A stretch of 64,000 bases of DNA from Nostoc sp. JL33 (lineage in GTDB: Bacteria; Cyanobacteriota; Cyanobacteriia; Cyanobacteriales; Nostocaceae): assembly GCF_017114985.1 (NCBI RefSeq), contig NZ_JABXKP010000045.1, positions 1 through 64,000 of the forward strand, in the 5' to 3' direction. This document shows, piece by piece, positions 10,103 through 17,574 of this stretch. The notes under the pieces are model-generated. The model was given only the letters and a program-made list of their open reading frames with translations, was not told the origin of the DNA and made no database searches. Numbering within the stretch: the first letter of the stretch is position 1; every line of letters starts with the position of its first letter. The position numbers were made by a program, and so were the translations under genes.

Positions 10103-11758
10103 ATGCTGAATTTAGTAGCTTCGGCTAGCGGGGAGAGTGTTCCAACTCAACCACCTAACCAACATCGGATTATTGCTGCCATTGACCTGGGAACAAATTC
10201 TCTACACATGGTAGTAGTCAAGATTGACCCCACACTACCAGCTTTCAGCATTATCGCCAAAGAAAAAGAAACCGTGAGACTTGGCGATCGCAATCTAACT
10301 ACTGGGGAACTCAAACCGGAGATCATTAAAACGGCGATCGCTGCTTTAAGACGCTTCCAAGAAGTTGCCAAAACTATCAACGCTGAAACTATCATCGCTG
10401 TGGCAACTAGTGCTGTACGGGAAGCCCCCAATGGTAAAGATTTTTTGCAGATAGTAGAAACGGAGTTGGGTTTAAGCGTTGACTTGATTTCTGGTCAAGA
10501 AGAAGCGCGACGAATCTACCTTGGCGTTCTGTCGGGGATGGAATTTAACAACCAGCCTCACATGATTGTTGATATTGGCGGTGGTTCCACAGAATTGATT
10601 TTAGGCGACAGTAACGAACCGCGCACTCTTACTAGTACCAAAGTCGGTGCAGTACGACTCACTAGCGAGTTAATCACCACTGACCCGATCAGCAACACGG
10701 AGTTTCAGCAGCTGCAAGCCTATGCACGCGGGATGTTAGAACGTTCCGTGGATGAAGTATTAGCAAACCTTCAGCTTGGGGAATCTCCGCGTTTGGTGGG
10801 TACCTCTGGCACGATTGAAACCCTGGCGATGATTGATGCACGAGAAAAGTCGGGTGTTATTCCTTCCACTCTCAATGGCTACCAGTTTAGTCTTAAAGAC
10901 TTGCGAGAGTTGGTAAATCGCTTGCGGAAGCTGAGTAACTCCGAAACGGCTGCCATACCTGGGATGCCAGAGAAGCGGGCGGAAGTTATACTGGCTGGCG
11001 CAGTCATATTACAGGAAGTAATGACCCTTTTGGGTAGTGAATCGGTTACAGTTTGTGAGCGTTCTCTCAGGGAAGGCGTAATCGTAGATTGGATGTTAAC
11101 CCACGGTTTAATTGAAGATAAGCTACGTTACCAAAGTTCAGTTCGAGAACGGAATGTTCTAAAACTTGCTAATAAGTACCATGTCAATTTAGAATATAGC
11201 GATCGCGTGGCAAAATTTACCGAGAGTTTATTTGACCAAACTCAAGGTACCCTACACCACTGGGGATCTGACGAGCGACAACTGCTGTGGGCAGCTGCAA
11301 TATTACATAATTGCGGTCATTATGTGAGTCATTCGTCTCACCACAAGCACTCTTACTATCTAATTCGCAATGGTGAATTACTCGGTTATACAGAAACCGA
11401 GATTGAAATCATTGCCAATTTAGCGCGTTATCATCGCAAATCGCCGCCCAAGAAAAAACATGAAGAGTACCAGAATTTGCTGACTAAACACCAGCGACAA
11501 ATGGTTAGTCAATTGAGTGCAATTTTAAGATTGGCAGTGGCATTGGATAGACGAAAAATTGGTGCGATCGCTCAAGTGCAATGTGAGTATTATGAACAAT
11601 TTCGGCAGGTAAACTTGCTAATCTTTCCATCTAAATCTGATGATGACTGTGCTTTAGAACTCTGGAGTTTAGATTACAAGAAAGGAGTATTTGAGGAAGA
11701 ATTTGGAGTGAAATTAGTAGCGAGTTTAGAAAAATCTAGCGTTGCTAACTTATCTTAG
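10103..11758 (+). CDS. ppx: Exopolyphosphatase / pppGpp phosphohydrolase (Ppx/GppA)
   Basis: The 551-residue protein has the ASKHA-fold phosphatase domain (about 20-320), with AAIDLGTNSLHMVVVKID for phosphate 1, TSAVREAPNG, the phosphate-2 loop DIGGGSTELILG, and GTSGTIETLA. A helical C-terminal HD-like domain (about 330-550) carries LHNCGHYVSHSSHHKHSYY and ARYHRKS. Family members remove phosphate from polyphosphate ends or convert pppGpp to ppGpp. A 20-residue N-terminal extension precedes the core. The two-domain architecture is that of long bacterial and cyanobacterial PPX. Which substrate dominates cannot be told from sequence. Confidence 0.93.
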   Translation: MLNLVASASGESVPTQPPNQHRIIAAIDLGTNSLHMVVVKIDPTLPAFSIIAKEKETVRLGDRNLTTGELKPEIIKTAIAALRRFQEVAKTINAETIIAVATSAVREAPNGKDFLQIVETELGLSVDLISGQEEARRIYLGVLSGMEFNNQPHMIVDIGGGSTELILGDSNEPRTLTSTKVGAVRLTSELITTDPISNTEFQQLQAYARGMLERSVDEVLANLQLGESPRLVGTSGTIETLAMIDAREKSGVIPSTLNGYQFSLKDLRELVNRLRKLSNSETAAIPGMPEKRAEVILAGAVILQEVMTLLGSESVTVCERSLREGVIVDWMLTHGLIEDKLRYQSSVRERNVLKLANKYHVNLEYSDRVAKFTESLFDQTQGTLHHWGSDERQLLWAAAILHNCGHYVSHSSHHKHSYYLIRNGELLGYTETEIEIIANLARYHRKSPPKKKHEEYQNLLTKHQRQMVSQLSAILRLAVALDRRKIGAIAQVQCEYYEQFRQVNLLIFPSKSDDDCALELWSLDYKKGVFEEEFGVKLVASLEKSSVANLS

Positions 11759-12378: not shown

Positions 12379-12438
12379 TTACGACTTAATTATTGATTAA
12401 TGTTATTATAAATATTCAACTTGAAAAATCAAAATATT

Positions 12439-12819
12439 ATGAATATAGCTGTAAAAACTACCTCTGCGACAACTGCACCTAAGTTAACTTATGATGTGCT
12501 GATTGAAAATCAAGCAGATGGTACAGTTAAAGCAACATTGCTAGGTTTACCAGACTGCCAAGGTTTAGGAAATACGGAAACGGAAGCAATAGAGAAACTC
12601 AGTCAAAGTTTGCAAACTCGGTTAGAAACAGCCAAAATTGTGACTTTAGAAATTGAAGCGCCCAAAGTAGAAAACCCTTGGATGAAATTTGCGGGTATGT
12701 TCAAAGATGATCCGCAATTTGACGAGATGCTGGCATATATAGAAGCTGATCGCCGTGAACTTGACGCAAAAATGGAGGAACATTATCGGCAACTTGATGC
12801 GGAGAATGAAACTAAGTGA
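12439..12819 (+). CDS. HicB-like antitoxin paired with a PIN toxin
   Basis: The protein of 126 residues has two parts. Residues 15-75 (LTYDVLIENQADGTVKATL, LPDCQGLGNTETEAIEKL) resemble the HicB partial RNase-H-like fold. The C-terminal tail (WMKFAGMFKDDPQFDEMLAYI, then charged helix) is the type that wraps PIN-domain toxins in cyanobacterial pairs. Its stop overlaps the toxin start by 4 bases (GTGA), as in most toxin-antitoxin operons. ATG at 12439 is preferred to the TTG at 12421. It should bind and silence the toxin and probably repress its own promoter. A dead copy lies immediately upstream. Confidence 0.78.
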   Translation: MNIAVKTTSATTAPKLTYDVLIENQADGTVKATLLGLPDCQGLGNTETEAIEKLSQSLQTRLETAKIVTLEIEAPKVENPWMKFAGMFKDDPQFDEMLAYIEADRRELDAKMEEHYRQLDAENETK

Positions 12820-13235
12820 TATGGATACTTGATACAGATCACGTCTCACTTTTTCAACAAAGGCATCCAGTTGTCACGCAGCGTATCAATGCAGTCAATC
12901 GTGAAGACATTGCTGTAACAATAATTACAGTTGAAGAACAACTGCGTGGGAGGTTTAATGTAATCAGAAAGGCTTCCTCATCTGATACATTGGTATTAGC
13001 TTATGCAAACCTACAGGCTACCTTAGAGTTTTTCAAAAATGTGCGATCGCTAGGATTTGACCAGTATGCTATCAATTGTTATGAAGATTTGATTCGTCAA
13101 AGAATTCGCATTGGTACTCAAGATTTACGCATTGCGGCAATTACGCTGTCAGTGAATGGGATTTTAGTAACCCGCAACCGCAAGGATTTTGAAAAAGTGC
13201 CTAATTTGCGTTTTGAAGATTGGACTATATCTTAA
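12816..13235 (+). CDS. VapC-like PIN-domain ribonuclease toxin
   Basis: The 139-residue PIN domain shows the acidic active-site set: Asp in WILDTDHVSLF (about residue 6), Glu in TVEEQLRGRF (about 40), Asp in GTQDLRIAAI (about 100) and Asp in TRNRKDFEKVPNL (about 119). The family cleaves RNA in a metal-dependent way when released from its antitoxin. The start is GTG, overlapping the antitoxin stop by 4 bases, so translation is coupled. All four acidic residues are present, so the toxin looks active. Confidence 0.88.
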   Translation: MIWILDTDHVSLFQQRHPVVTQRINAVNREDIAVTIITVEEQLRGRFNVIRKASSSDTLVLAYANLQATLEFFKNVRSLGFDQYAINCYEDLIRQRIRIGTQDLRIAAITLSVNGILVTRNRKDFEKVPNLRFEDWTIS

Positions 13236-13376: not shown

Positions 13377-13757
13377 CTATTTGTTTATAGTTAAAAACTT
13401 CAGAGTAATATTATTAGCTTCCCAGTATTCTTTGGCTGAATTTAAAATATCCAATGCTATTTGGTACTGTGTAGGGTCAGCTTGAGCAAAGATATCAGCA
13501 TGATCATACAATATGACGTATCTCTCAGCCGGACACCATGTTAAATCGGTGATACATTCATCAAAAGCATCCCAGTTTGCACTAAAGTATGTAGGAAATT
13601 GGATTGCTTCAGCAGCTTTACTTAAAAATGTTTCTTTGCTATTAATTTTTTTACCATCAAGATAAAAAACTTTAGTTCCTGGTTCTGCGGGTATTTGTTC
13701 CACTGTTTCACGTATGCCTTGTTTTGCGTCTATTGAAACATTTAGAAATTCACTCAT
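13377..13757 (-). CDS. Barstar-family (barnase inhibitor) protein
   Basis: The 126-residue protein has the barstar core: FYLDGKKINSKETFLSKAAEAI, then FPTYFSANWDAFDECITDL with the Asn-Trp-Asp-Ala motif of the inhibitor helix, and YVILYDHADIFA. Barstars bind and block barnase-like ribonucleases. No barnase gene is adjacent, so the partner is not visible. ATG at 13757 has a clear ribosome site, AAGGAGA, 6 bases upstream, and is preferred to a GTG at 13778. The gene follows the vWA-PP2C-kinase operon by 59 bases on the same strand and may be its fourth member. Confidence 0.85.
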   Translation of the reverse strand: MSEFLNVSIDAKQGIRETVEQIPAEPGTKVFYLDGKKINSKETFLSKAAEAIQFPTYFSANWDAFDECITDLTWCPAERYVILYDHADIFAQADPTQYQIALDILNSAKEYWEANNITLKFLTINK

Positions 13758-13816
13758 GTATTTCTCCTTACTTATCACGACTACTAGATGAATTTTTGAA
13801 GGCTATTGTTAAAATG

Positions 13817-16108
13817 CTATAGTCTAGGGTTTTTGTGACCCCGCCAGGAGTCAAACCAAAGCAAAGCAATAGCAACGCAATACCAAAAAAAAGCAAACCA
13901 AGCAAGGAAAGCAGACCAACCAAGCAAACAAAAAAATAATCCAATCCCAACAATAACCACTACCAAAACGTTCACATCAGAATTTAAAGTAGTTGTAGTG
14001 GTATGTGTTGCCGATGGTTGGGTTATTACGGGTTGAATATGAGGTGTAGAAGCTGCTGGTTGAGAAATATTAGATTGAGTTGGCTTAATTAGTGATGAAG
14101 TAGCTGTATTGCTTGATGATGCAAGCTGCCAAATATTGATAGTTTTGTCAAAGCTTGCACTGGCAAGGATTTTGCCATCTGGGCTAAAAGCTACGGAATA
14201 AACATAGGAGGAATGCCCCTTAAGGGTGTAGATTTCTCTTGCCGTGCCTACATCCCATAGTTTGATAGTATTGTCAAAGCTTGCACTGGCAAGGGTTTTG
14301 CCATCTGGACTGAAGGCAACTGAACGAACCCAGTCGGAATGCCCTTGGAGAGTGCGGATTTGCCCTCCTGTTGTGACATCCCAGAGTTTGATAGTCTTGT
14401 CATCACTCCCACTGGCAAGGATTTTGCCATCTGGGCTAAAGGCAACCAAACGAACCCAGTCGGAATGTGCTTGGAAAGTGCGGATTTGCCGTCCTGTTGT
14501 GACATCCCAGAGTTTGATAGTCGTGTCATTACTCCCACTGGCAAGGATTTTGCCATCTGGGCTGAAAGCTACGGAATTAACGTTGGAGGAATGCACTTGC
14601 AGAGTGCGGATTTGCCGTCCTGTTGTGACATCCCACAGTTTGATAGTCCTGTCACAACTCCCACTGGCAAGGATTTTGCCATCTGGGCTAAAGGCAACCG
14701 AAAGAACCCAGGCGGAATGTGCTTGGAGAGTGCGTATTTGCCCTCTTGTTGTCACATCCCACAGTTTGATATTCGTGTCATCACTCCCACTGGCAAGGAT
14801 TTTGCCATCTGGGCTGAAAGCTACGGAATAAACGTTTGAGAAATGCCCCTGAAGGGTGTAAATTTCTCTTCCCGTGCCGACATCCCACAACTTGATAGTA
14901 TTGTCATTACTCCCACTTGCAAGAGTTTTGCCATTTGGACTGAAAGCTACCGAATTAACAGAGTTGGAATGCCCTTGTAAGGTATGGATTTGCCCTCCTA
15001 TTGCGACATTTTCTAAAGTTTTATCTGCGGCAAAAGCTTTAGGTTGTGATGTTGATACAGCAAAAGCAGATTGTTGTTTTGGTCTAGCAAAGCCAGGAAA
15101 TATATCAATATGAAGTTTTGTAAAGCGATCGCACCAATAACACTTACCATAAGTTTGGCTGTAGTAGTGGCTGTCTACCTTTCCACAGATAGTTAACTCA
15201 TTAACAGCAAGTCTGAGCGCCTTTACCCAATCCTCAGCAGTTGGGCGTAAGTTAGGATTTTGATAACCATCATTAAAGCATTTGAGAAAACATCGCTGAA
15301 CCTCTGGGTGAACAATCTCAAGAGGAATTGTCCTTTCTACAGGTTGAATCAAATTGTTTGGTGCATACAGCCAAAAACCGTGACGGATAAGTTCATTAGG
15401 TAGTGGTGTGTCTCCCGTACCTGTCCACTTTCCCGCAAAAGGAGTTTGACCACCAAACAACAACTGATAGATAATCACTGCTAACCGGAAGCGATCGTGT
15501 ACTTCCGTTTGATCAATGCTATCAAAATCTTTGCCAATGAGTTCCGGTGGTGTAAAGCCATCTGAACCAACTGAACAACGATAAACCTTATTATTTTTCG
15601 GATTCCGAACCTGAAAAGAATCAGTATCAATAATTGAAGGTAAGGCGCGATCGTTAACAAGAATATTTTGCGGCTTGATGTCACCCAAAACATAGTCAGA
15701 AATGTGAATTGCTTCAATAATTGAGGCGATATTCAGCGCCGTTGTGTGGAGAAAACGCCAATCAACCTCAAGTTTTAGCCGCTTCCGAAGTTGGGGGTTG
15801 TATATATCAATAAGTTCTTTGCCTTCCTTAATTTCCGGCATCAAAAAGCCCACACAATCACCCTGAGCATCTTTCAGTAACGACTTAGGCCAAGCAAAAG
15901 AAATATGATTGAGATGAGAGTTTGGCTCTTTGGGGCGGTGCGCTATCATCACCGCCAACTTTTGCACACGCTCAGGTTTTTGGTCATGATAAATTTTTGC
16001 TAAGTAACCATTGCGATTAGTTTGCCAAACCTTCGCTTCACCACTATTTTTAGGTTCACCCAACAGAGTAATCGATTGACCCGTACTGGCACAGGTGAAA
16101 ACTGTCAT
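13817..16108 (-). CDS. Ser/Thr protein kinase fused to a seven-bladed WD40 propeller and membrane anchor
   Basis: The 763-residue protein starts with a divergent kinase domain (about 1-300). It has LAKIYHD as the probable Lys strand, VLGDIKPQNILV as the catalytic loop (Gly-Asp in place of Arg-Asp, Asp and Asn kept, about 140), and IDTDSFQV in place of DFG. A Cys cluster follows (CGK..CYWC, about 307-327), possibly a small zinc site. Seven 42-residue WD40 repeats (about 370-665, ending TIKLWDV) make a full propeller. A Thr/Ser-rich linker and one or two hydrophobic helices (about 710-755) end the chain. It lies 6 bases after PP2C, in one operon with vWA. Its targets are unknown. Confidence 0.9.
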   Translation of the reverse strand: MTVFTCASTGQSITLLGEPKNSGEAKVWQTNRNGYLAKIYHDQKPERVQKLAVMIAHRPKEPNSHLNHISFAWPKSLLKDAQGDCVGFLMPEIKEGKELIDIYNPQLRKRLKLEVDWRFLHTTALNIASIIEAIHISDYVLGDIKPQNILVNDRALPSIIDTDSFQVRNPKNNKVYRCSVGSDGFTPPELIGKDFDSIDQTEVHDRFRLAVIIYQLLFGGQTPFAGKWTGTGDTPLPNELIRHGFWLYAPNNLIQPVERTIPLEIVHPEVQRCFLKCFNDGYQNPNLRPTAEDWVKALRLAVNELTICGKVDSHYYSQTYGKCYWCDRFTKLHIDIFPGFARPKQQSAFAVSTSQPKAFAADKTLENVAIGGQIHTLQGHSNSVNSVAFSPNGKTLASGSNDNTIKLWDVGTGREIYTLQGHFSNVYSVAFSPDGKILASGSDDTNIKLWDVTTRGQIRTLQAHSAWVLSVAFSPDGKILASGSCDRTIKLWDVTTGRQIRTLQVHSSNVNSVAFSPDGKILASGSNDTTIKLWDVTTGRQIRTFQAHSDWVRLVAFSPDGKILASGSDDKTIKLWDVTTGGQIRTLQGHSDWVRSVAFSPDGKTLASASFDNTIKLWDVGTAREIYTLKGHSSYVYSVAFSPDGKILASASFDKTINIWQLASSSNTATSSLIKPTQSNISQPAASTPHIQPVITQPSATHTTTTTLNSDVNVLVVVIVGIGLFFCLLGWSAFLAWFAFFWYCVAIALLWFDSWRGHKNPRL
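14115..14998 (-). repeat. Seven 126-bp WD40-coding tandem repeats
   Basis: Seven DNA repeats of 126 bp each encode one WD40 blade of the kinase. Blades 3-6 are strikingly alike at DNA level (the words for KILASGS and TIKLWDVTTG recur almost unchanged), which points to recent amplification or gene conversion between blades. The variation is concentrated at the tips (HSNSV, HFSNV, HSAWV, HSDWV, HSSYV). Confidence 0.85.
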
Positions 16109-16114
16109 CGAATT

Positions 16115-16903
16115 TTACTCTCTATCAAAGAAGCACAAAAGTAAGGTTTTATCATCGTCAGTGCGAGAATTTAGCCGTTCAGAGTTGAGGAATTCCATCA
16201 GATATTTATCTTTCTCCTCTTCATTAACAGGTTCGTGCAAGTATTCCTCCAAAGGTTTAAAGAAAGGTGAGAAGGGTTTCCAGTCGCTCAAGCGAATTGC
16301 TACTTTCTCTAGTCCATCAGTGGAAGCACAAATAAACTCTTGTTTTTCGGAAATAACTTTTACCTGCATTTCTTTTACTGCATTTGCTGAAGTGATAAAA
16401 GTCGTTTCATTAGCAAACTCACCTTTATCTGGCTGAAACAACAGTTGATATTCTGACTCTTGGGAACGCCTTACAATAAATCCATCGCCAATTTGCATAG
16501 CTGCAACCCAGTCAGGAGTTGCTACGAAAACCAACAATGTACAAGCTAAATCATTGACAGAATAATTTTCTTTCTCTGCTTTTTTGCCTAACTCAGCAAT
16601 TACCTTATTTACAGTTTTAGTAAATAATCTCTCGGCTTCTGGTTGCGAAAGTGCTTGAGAAACTTTTTGCCACCAATGTTGACGCTTGCGAAGATATTCA
16701 CTAATTTTTGAGAGATATTTAAGTGCCGTTTCTACCGCCAACTCAGAACCAACATCAGAATATTTAGCACTACCAGCACCATCAGCAACCGCGCCTACAA
16801 TCACATCCTTAAAGGTGCAATATTTCCCATAATCTTGACAAACTATACCCTGGTTTTCATGACTTGTTCCGATCGCAGAACCCGCAACAGCTTTCCAATT
16901 CAC
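16115..16903 (-). CDS. PP2C-family Ser/Thr protein phosphatase
   Basis: The 262-residue protein has the PP2C metal-binding elements: SHENQGIVCQDYG (first Asp), VGAVADGAGSAKYSDVGSE (second Asp-Gly), CASTDGLEKVA and TDDDKTLLLCF near the C-terminus (final acidic site). It belongs to the short, stand-alone PP2C_2-like group often found next to vWA and kinase genes. It lies between the vWA gene (11 bases upstream) and the kinase gene (6 bases downstream), and should reverse the kinase's phosphorylation. All metal ligands that can be recognised are present. Confidence 0.9.
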   Translation of the reverse strand: MNWKAVAGSAIGTSHENQGIVCQDYGKYCTFKDVIVGAVADGAGSAKYSDVGSELAVETALKYLSKISEYLRKRQHWWQKVSQALSQPEAERLFTKTVNKVIAELGKKAEKENYSVNDLACTLLVFVATPDWVAAMQIGDGFIVRRSQESEYQLLFQPDKGEFANETTFITSANAVKEMQVKVISEKQEFICASTDGLEKVAIRLSDWKPFSPFFKPLEEYLHEPVNEEEKDKYLMEFLNSERLNSRTDDDKTLLLCFFDRE

Positions 16904-16914
16904 AAAATTTCCTC

Positions 16915-17574
16915 CTAACTGCTAATTTGACCCCATCCCATAGACGGTAAAGCTACAGCTTGCCCCACTTTGCCACTAGAAACTCGTTTCATCGAAGCAG
17001 AAAGCCAGACGAACAAATCACGAAAATTTAAGCCATTTAGCGTAACTGGTGGACGTTCAGGTGGAGAAATTTGTTTAAGGATATTCATATCAGCACCCTG
17101 TACACCAACCGCAAAAAATGACAGTCGGCTTTGTGCTTCTGCTTGTCTCAATCTTTGCGCTGCTGAATTCCATGAATCAGTTGGCGCTCCATCTGTAATC
17201 AAAAACACCCACGGGCGATAATAGAGAATACCGTTGTCTTTATAAGTCTGTTTCCGGCTTTCTAGAAAATCCAAGGCATACTCAATCGCCCCACCCATTG
17301 GGGTAACACCATCTACTTCTAATCTAGGCGGTGTAAATTGGTCAATCGTTACAAAGTCTTGCGTGAGTTTAACTATGGGGCCAAATGTAATCATGGCTAC
17401 TTCCACACTCAGCGATGCTTGGGAATCTTTTAGTACATCTTCTTTGAAAGCAGCAAGTCCTTGATTTAACTCTTGGATAGGCTGACCTGACATAGAGCCA
17501 GAAGTATCGAGTAAGAGAATTACAGGGCAACGATTTTCTGGATTTTCAACGAATTCAGGCAATCCTACAGGCAT
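16915..17574 (-). CDS. TerY-like von Willebrand factor A domain protein
   Basis: The 219-residue protein is a single vWA domain. Its metal-ion-dependent adhesion site is complete: LLLDTSGSMSG (Asp23-x-Ser25-x-Ser27), DGVTPMGGAI (Thr about 93) and FLITDGAPTDSW (Asp about 131). The family of small TerY-like vWA proteins is known from tellurium/stress clusters and from vWA-phosphatase-kinase triads. It is the first gene of the operon, followed by PP2C and the kinase. It probably serves as a metal-dependent scaffold or phosphorylation target; this is inference from triads described elsewhere. Confidence 0.9.
   Translation of the reverse strand: MPVGLPEFVENPENRCPVILLLDTSGSMSGQPIQELNQGLAAFKEDVLKDSQASLSVEVAMITFGPIVKLTQDFVTIDQFTPPRLEVDGVTPMGGAIEYALDFLESRKQTYKDNGILYYRPWVFLITDGAPTDSWNSAAQRLRQAEAQSRLSFFAVGVQGADMNILKQISPPERPPVTLNGLNFRDLFVWLSASMKRVSSGKVGQAVALPSMGWGQISS

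Follow-up and report, generated by a model that had tools for sequence, protein, structure and literature searches.

What could be the role of a three-gene set that encodes a von Willebrand factor type A (vWA) protein, a PP2C phosphatase and a serine/threonine kinase extended by a WD40 propeller? Such a set, hereafter the triad, is present in Nostoc sp. JL33 on a stretch of 64,000 nucleotides (NCBI RefSeq assembly GCF_017114985.1, contig NZ_JABXKP010000045.1, positions 1 to 64,000), which we refer to as the window. In the open reading frame (ORF) list of the window, all three genes lie on the minus strand in the order vWA, PP2C and kinase (Table 1), with gaps of 11 bases (vWA-PP2C) and 6 bases (PP2C-kinase), just as described in an earlier annotation made from the sequence alone (the initial annotation). 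From this spacing we infer that the three genes are co-transcribed; a scan for promoter-like and terminator-like matches gave no information, as the matches at the locus were at the level of shuffled sequence. The triad looks like a three-gene phospho-switch that is kin to one in E. coli, with the Nostoc-type kinase often carrying a recently built propeller as a sensor that is continually re-tuned.

Relationship of the triad to E. coli yegL-pphC-yegI

Profiles of the cyanobacterial relatives comprised 123 vWA, 123 PP2C and 140 kinase rows; these include some genes twice as well as a paralogous clade, and the numbers of distinct sequences (105, 106 and 119, respectively) are given alongside. 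The profiles matched E. coli YegL, PphC and YegI with 295, 216 and 230 bits, respectively, the YegI match spanning residues 6-329 with the zinc ribbon included. The gene order in E. coli K-12 is the same as in the window, except that yegJ is inserted between pphC (yegK) and yegI. Together, the profile matches and the shared gene order suggest that the window genes are almost certainly homologous to yegL-pphC-yegI and form a TerY-P-type triad. The initial annotation had read the set as TerY-P-like, which was right and is here sharpened to the E. coli genes. According to results cited in PMC13232886, YegI is a membrane-bound kinase, phosphorylates itself on serine and is dephosphorylated by PphC; the same paper states that no condition promoting expression of the pair had been found. 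The two sets share the three families, their order, the zinc ribbon and a membrane kinase with a cognate PP2C. In contrast to the window kinase, YegI has no Pfam WD40 match and shows a weak HHH_5 match (20.1 bits, below the cut-off). The TerY-P triad of Anantharaman 2012, as described in PMC11090510, consists of a TerY-like vWA protein, a PP2C and a kinase with a C-terminal zinc ribbon. The window holds all three, but its kinase adds a WD40 propeller and a hydrophobic hairpin behind the ribbon.

The predicted active sites are retained in all three proteins. The metal-ion-dependent adhesion site (MIDAS) of the vWA protein and the metal-binding aspartates of the PP2C were kept in alignment columns covering 101-106 distinct sequences; the MIDAS positions were scored in 104-105 of these, with a single exception at D128, and the PP2C columns had a single exception at D41. 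The complete vWA metal site and the PP2C phosphatase of the initial annotation therefore both hold up. ATP binding by the divergent kinase, which that annotation had raised as a point to check, is probably preserved, judging from the retained residues: K38 was kept in 118/118 distinct kinase sequences and D143, N148 and D161 each in 118/119, with K145 more variable (99/119). The ribbon residues C308, H314, C323 and C326 were invariant in all 117 distinct sequences that cover these columns. This conservation indicates that the Cys cluster is the ordinary predicted zinc ribbon of the core kinase. Its presence had been noticed correctly, whereas the view that it was added to the kinase does not stand.

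AlphaFold2 modelled residues 1-351 with a mean predicted local distance difference test (pLDDT) score of 94.1. A structure search with the kinase part returned only general protein kinases among the matches listed, with template modelling (TM) scores of about 0.5-0.6 by query length. In the model of the full protein, a kinase fold is followed by a closed propeller (369-663) and two C-terminal helices (712-728 and 730-756), the latter with only middling confidence (blocks 58-87). Hydropathy windows at the C-terminus begin at 707 and 731. A hydrophobic hairpin is thus present where the initial annotation placed a C-terminal membrane anchor, and a membrane role is probable from these predictions. 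The mean pLDDT of the full model was 87 and the predicted TM score (pTM) 0.53, with higher confidence within than between domains, which makes the modelled arrangement of the domains relative to one another tentative.

The WD40 propeller and change at its predicted binding positions

The seven blades of the window kinase are spaced exactly 42 residues apart and are up to 93% identical in DNA. In the model, ten-residue blocks of the propeller scored 92-98 from residue 381 to 660. Seven Pfam stretches and the closed propeller of the model agree with the complete seven-blade propeller that was initially annotated. The best Foldseek matches of the propeller were WRAP-T (7big), PkwA (5yzv) and a highly repetitive propeller (2ymu). 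PkwA, like the window protein, is a Ser/Thr kinase with a seven-blade WD40 propeller. The WRAP propellers of Nostoc STAND proteins are described in PMC9218822 as recently amplified and subject to fast turnover, with a likely role in prokaryotic innate immunity according to its authors. They resemble the window kinase in their freshly amplified WD40 blades but are joined to STAND ATPases, with no kinase/PP2C/vWA triad.

Three binding positions on the top face of each WD40 blade, R1-2, R1 and D-1, have been defined (Wu 2012; PMC3419727). By this published rule they correspond to blade positions 5, 7 and 23 here. An initial set of four hot-spot positions had been chosen after seeing the data, and the analysis was redone with the published three. 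We compared the blades of the window kinase and of kinases from 20 named loci, located with a sequence pattern, for nonsynonymous (pN) and synonymous (pS) change. Among blade pairs of at least 80% DNA identity (196 pairs, 21 proteins), pN/pS was 2.59 at positions 5/7/23 compared to 0.42 elsewhere, and these positions exceeded the rest of the blade in 21/21 proteins. Of all 8436 possible trios, 5/7/23 ranked second by pN, and only 2, itself included, reached its pN. Similar ratios were obtained at 90% identity (46 pairs, 10 proteins; 2.45 vs 0.57) and at 70% identity (296 pairs; 2.18 vs 0.42), the three positions exceeding the rest in 21/21 proteins at the latter threshold. The predicted sets of binding residues differ among close strains, two of which (loci L108 and L109) share their first two. 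As a control, we examined 15 stretches containing further WD40 genes of JL33, 7 of which gave at least three blades. The control genes had no blade pairs of at least 80% identity; at 70%, their pN/pS was 0.78 at 5/7/23 vs 0.25 elsewhere, at a higher pS than in the triad kinases. What distinguishes the triad kinases is that their blades are freshly amplified and that pN exceeds pS.

These data bear on the best-surviving alternative, namely that the triad is an ordinary housekeeping stress switch whose WD40 part is a passive scaffold and whose hot-spot variety is drift on freshly duplicated blades. WD40 repeats are abundant, with at least 150 repeat matches in the genome of JL33 (150 of 192 candidates scored), and hot-spot variety is reported in PMC5587647 as general in highly repetitive WD40 proteins and appears in our own-genome control. 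Drift, however, predicts that pN is about equal to pS, whereas pN exceeds pS at 5/7/23 while the rest of the blade is constrained.

The codons at the hot spots vary in their first two bases (125 blades, 21 triad kinases); at codon 5 the first base was T in 98/125 blades and the second C or G in 103/125. A diversity-generating retroelement was considered and is not favoured, as the adenine-specific change expected of it fits this codon pattern poorly; a reverse transcriptase was not searched for. Separately, the third codon base was T or G at position 7 in 120/125 blades and at position 23 in 122/125, the first two bases being highly varied, and at position 4 it was C in 97/125, several other blade codons also being very constant there.

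Exchange of the part behind the zinc ribbon

The initial annotation had taken the WD40 fusion to be uncommon. We scanned the C-terminal parts of 78 of the 80 named loci (L131 and L164 left out), several of which run off the contig end, and found Pfam WD40 in 33. The 46 parts that had no strong match to the window propeller (L107, L119 and L153 additionally left out) were rescanned, revealing 12 with TPR, 3 with FGE-sulfatase, 3 with PDZ and 3 with DUF1036 matches. On a quick tree of the kinase domain (87 rows; L131 and L146 left out), the WD40 label changes 13 times, with gain and loss taken together, compared to a mean of 25.3 after shuffling; at least 10 changes are forced by starred branches, and 12 remain when the outgroup and truncated rows are removed. 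The frequency of WD40 parts and the changes on the tree indicate that WD40 fusion is common and exchange of the slot frequent, contrary to the earlier view. In Sphaerospermopsis kisseleviana NIES-73 (L121 and L129), two triads lie about 10 kb apart on one chromosome and differ in their kinase C-termini.

Fusions of kinases with WD40 propellers are also known from the literature. The 2007 survey PMC2176072 reports many cyanobacterial Ser/Thr kinases with seven WD40 repeats, a likeness to the window kinase that rests on domain make-up rather than on a comparison of kinase-domain sequences. The survey kinases differ in that PP2C, vWA or von Willebrand have 0 occurrences in its main text. According to PMC5587647, cyanobacterial WD40 genes often lie next to kinase genes or are fused with them. 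Three elements are already in print singly, namely the triad, WD40 kinases and WD40 propellers that evolve fast; what varies here is that the triad bears a sensor under selection. In the open-licence literature we found no report joining TerY with WD40 kinases, a paper on HEPN domains mentioning both terms but in separate places; the pair YegI and WD40 was not searched.

Distribution of the triad in cyanobacteria

The named collection holds the best 80 of 183 relatives, and distant members are therefore under-sampled. Upstream sequence of 2 kb or more was available for 72 named loci, the other 8 of the 80 having too little. Of the 72, 62 had the order vWA-PP2C-kinase, with both gaps at most 50 bases in 33 of the 62. 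The three genes, whose joint conservation had been questioned in the initial annotation, are thus linked in most relatives where this could be assessed. Kinases without an upstream vWA or PP2C gene were seen at L133, L136, L138, L142, L166, L171, L173 and L174. The genomes of L138 and L173 hold a second, complete triad (L139 and L177, respectively), as if one phosphatase and vWA protein could serve several kinases.

A kinase match at E ≤ 1e-10 was present in 150/291 genomes of the order. At class level, 35/145 genomes had a match at E ≤ 1e-20. The kinases form two clades: the window's own, which is patchy, and a second at about 40% identity. On contig 67 of the JL33 genome (L063) there is a second, paralogous vWA-PP2C-kinase triad, its kinase domain 40% identical to that of the window, and no WD40 pattern match was found in this kinase. 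The L063-type triad looks like the core copy, its clade being present in nearly every sampled family member. The housekeeping alternative gains from the kinase matches in 60/60 sampled family genomes, mostly from the second, paralogous clade; unlike a housekeeping gene, the window-type clade has a patchy distribution and has decayed in some cases. On balance, we regard a housekeeping switch with a drifting scaffold as unlikely, though it is the strongest of the three alternatives considered.

In the loci compared, and as judged by ORF reading, window-type triads mostly occupy one of two sites: the first is flanked by atpB-atpI-methyltransferase and apcE, the second by EamA and ppx genes. A few loci have different flanks. 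The window triad itself sits between an EamA transporter gene and ppx. By tblastn, no triad remnant was found at the first site (atpB-atpI-methyltransferase/apcE) of its genome. Two genomes of the same genus (G265 and G168) carry the triad at the first site and broken pieces at the second, where the remnants are kinase, PIN and partner pieces at L193 and vWA and PIN pieces at L194. Recent mobility of the triad between the two sites is disfavoured, as the remnants and the empty site fit two old copies; differential loss of these copies fits the pattern. At the empty first site of JL33 (L192, contig 52), the interval between the methyltransferase and ComB-like genes holds, at around 10739-11669, two short repeats that correspond to the beginning of the methyltransferase gene.

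A proposed membrane receptor kinase with a changing sensor

We consider it likely that the kinase is a membrane receptor coupled to a phospho-switch that stays fixed, and that selection diversifies its sensor. The roles of kinase, PP2C and vWA protein follow from homology with YegI and PphC; that of the propeller follows from the pattern of diversification. By analogy with YegI/PphC, kinase and phosphatase very probably antagonise each other. A propeller that acts as a ligand sensor under diversifying selection is a somewhat less secure, though still favoured, part of this model. A C-terminal hairpin would tether the kinase protein to the membrane, its kinase domain and propeller both facing the cytoplasm. 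The top face of the propeller would bind a peptide or protein, and binding would alter autophosphorylation or substrate phosphorylation, which the PP2C would reset. The vWA protein may hold a peptide of the kinase or its substrate through the MIDAS metal site. The phospho-switch would stay constant, while the slot behind the ribbon is exchanged between WD40, TPR, PDZ, FGE-sulfatase fold and bare hydrophobic helices; in the WD40 versions, newly amplified blades would be selected for new ligand contacts.

Several observations weigh against this model. At E ≤ 1, Pfam recognises no kinase domain in E. coli YegI, the glycine loop of the window kinase is non-canonical, and the placement of kinase versus propeller is unsettled in the structural model (pTM 0.53). 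Eight of the 72 loci have neither partner and two have a vWA gene but no detected PP2C, and a gene is broken in some of the 62 ordered loci (L131, L146, L163 and L172). At 90% identity, the hot positions exceed the rest of the blade in 8/10 proteins rather than in all. In the control at 70% (22 pairs, 5 proteins), positions 5/7/23 lead in 5/5, indicating that WD40 proteins in general change most at these positions and that the triad kinases stand out only in having pN above pS. Blade pairs are non-independent, gene conversion could lower pS and mimic selection, and the blades were located by a pattern that misses some.

A second alternative is that the triad is a TerY-P anti-phage defence module. 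The literature reports TerY-P-like modules with an OB-fold kinase as defence (PMC11090510) and kinase-PP2C-vWA genes together with GTPase conflict systems (PMC7159879), and the turnover of the sensor resembles that of immune receptors. However, the PADLOC TerY model (PDLC02224) had no match to the window vWA protein at E ≤ 1, and it reached only E 0.032 with E. coli YegL. PADLOC otherwise gave weak kinase-level matches to the window proteins and one to the WD40 part (HEAT-ARM_XIII). Past the barstar and VapC-type genes described below, the nearest neighbours are Ppx-like and EamA-like by ORF reading, the rest of the window not having been scanned for defence genes. Reading the neighbouring ORFs by eye brought up no ter/tellurite or restriction genes, the wider window not having been covered by a family scan. 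A defence module is improbable, a little more so than a housekeeping switch.

The neighbouring barstar and VapC-type genes

The kinase gene is followed on the same strand by a barstar-like gene, which the initial annotation had tentatively tied to the circuit (Table 1). Its ORF opens at a GTG at 13778, but the start is most likely the ATG at 13757, which is preceded by TAAGGAG. With this start, the gap between kinase and barstar is 59 bases rather than 38.

Table 1. Positions of the triad, its domains and the neighbouring genes in the window
Feature	Position	Strand	Evidence
vWA protein (YegL/TerY-like), 219 aa	16915..17574	-	Pfam VWA 43.9 bits; MIDAS D23-S25-S27-T91-D128 complete
PP2C phosphatase (PphC-like), 262 aa	16115..16903	-	Pfam PP2C_2 200.8 bits; GTG start, AGGAGG ahead
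Kinase gene, 763 aa	13817..16108	-	ORF list
Ser/Thr kinase domain, residues 1-303	15200..16108	-	Pkinase 38.6 bits (kinase part alone)
Kinase zinc ribbon, residues 305-332 (C308, H314, C323, C326)	15113..15196	-	Conservation; also aligned in YegI
Seven-blade WD40 propeller, residues 369-663	14120..15004	-	Pfam WD40 (7 stretches), blade spacing, AlphaFold2, Foldseek
C-terminal hydrophobic hairpin, residues 712-756, probable membrane anchor	13841..13975	-	Predicted helices and hydropathy
Barstar-like gene, 126 aa from ATG	13377..13757	-	Pfam Barstar 93.8 bits; recurrent neighbour
VapC-type PIN toxin gene	12816..13235	+	Convergent to barstar; NCBIfam VapC 59.8 bits (below cut-off), PDB 6nkl
Small gene, no convincing family match	12421..12819	+	Overlaps the following VapC-type gene

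If barstar belonged to a four-gene unit, it would inhibit an RNase under control of the phospho-switch. Within the range L103-L129, 22 Nostocaceae-type loci extend 1 kb or more past the kinase, and in 14 of these a barstar, or a portion of it, lies downstream of the kinase, in one piece in 7 and split or partial in 7 (L108, L109, L111, L112, L115, L122 and L129), and DNA remnants are present in three further loci (L105, L106 and L110). This linkage is hardly due to chance, since there are only 15 barstars in 60 genomes of the family, at most one in each. The compared copies of more than 80 aa are 72-93% identical to that of the window. In 13/22 of the same loci, the downstream region carries on its opposite strand a gene for a VapC-type RNase toxin, which is partial or broken in two of the 13. 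Within Nostoc/Komarekiella (L103, L107 and L111), the synonymous divergence (dS) of barstar was 0.10-0.21, near that of the triad genes.

The wider comparisons argue against such a unit. Between the window and L120, L124, L125 and L128, dS was 0.23-0.39 for barstar compared to 1.1-1.5 for vWA, 0.69-0.86 for PP2C and 0.66-0.90 for the kinase domain, a pattern suggesting that barstar passed between the wider groups later than the divergence of the triads. No barstar match was found in the 53 loci L130-L182, many of them with several kb downstream, and no barnase-family (PF00545) match was found in the JL33 genome. In G191 (L186), the triad is shattered but the barstar next to it is in one piece, and in G289 (L184) three barstar ORFs, two of 101 aa, accompany a triad reduced to vWA; conversely, barstar is broken beside whole triad ORFs at L108, L109, L111 and L122. 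At L184, L186 and L187 (G235), barstars are retained, partly in multiple copies, beside lost or shattered triads, which suggests that barstar is selected for its own sake. A barstar that outlives dead triads, is broken or missing beside whole ones and has a shallower dS in four wider comparisons is very unlikely to be a circuit member, and we treat it as a linked passenger. Of the overall reading in the initial annotation, the TerY-P-like triad stands, while the added Cys cluster, the rarity of the WD40 fusion and the place of barstar in the circuit find no support.

Implications

The favoured model, a membrane receptor kinase with a diversifying sensor on a fixed switch, can be extended. Tentatively, and with less than even confidence, the YegL-PphC-YegI switch may be a chassis for immune-receptor-like recognition in filamentous cyanobacteria, with a propeller rebuilt time and again by amplification of single blades and under positive selection at its ligand face. 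Sister strains would then recognise different molecules, possibly of phage or kin, through one constant output.

The cyanobacterial versions may provide a handle on the YegI/PphC pair, as their sensor is exchangeable and the fast-changing predicted binding residues can be read. If the propeller face is positively selected, the ligand must vary between strains, which would point to a role in recognition and offer a direct route to a search for the ligand.

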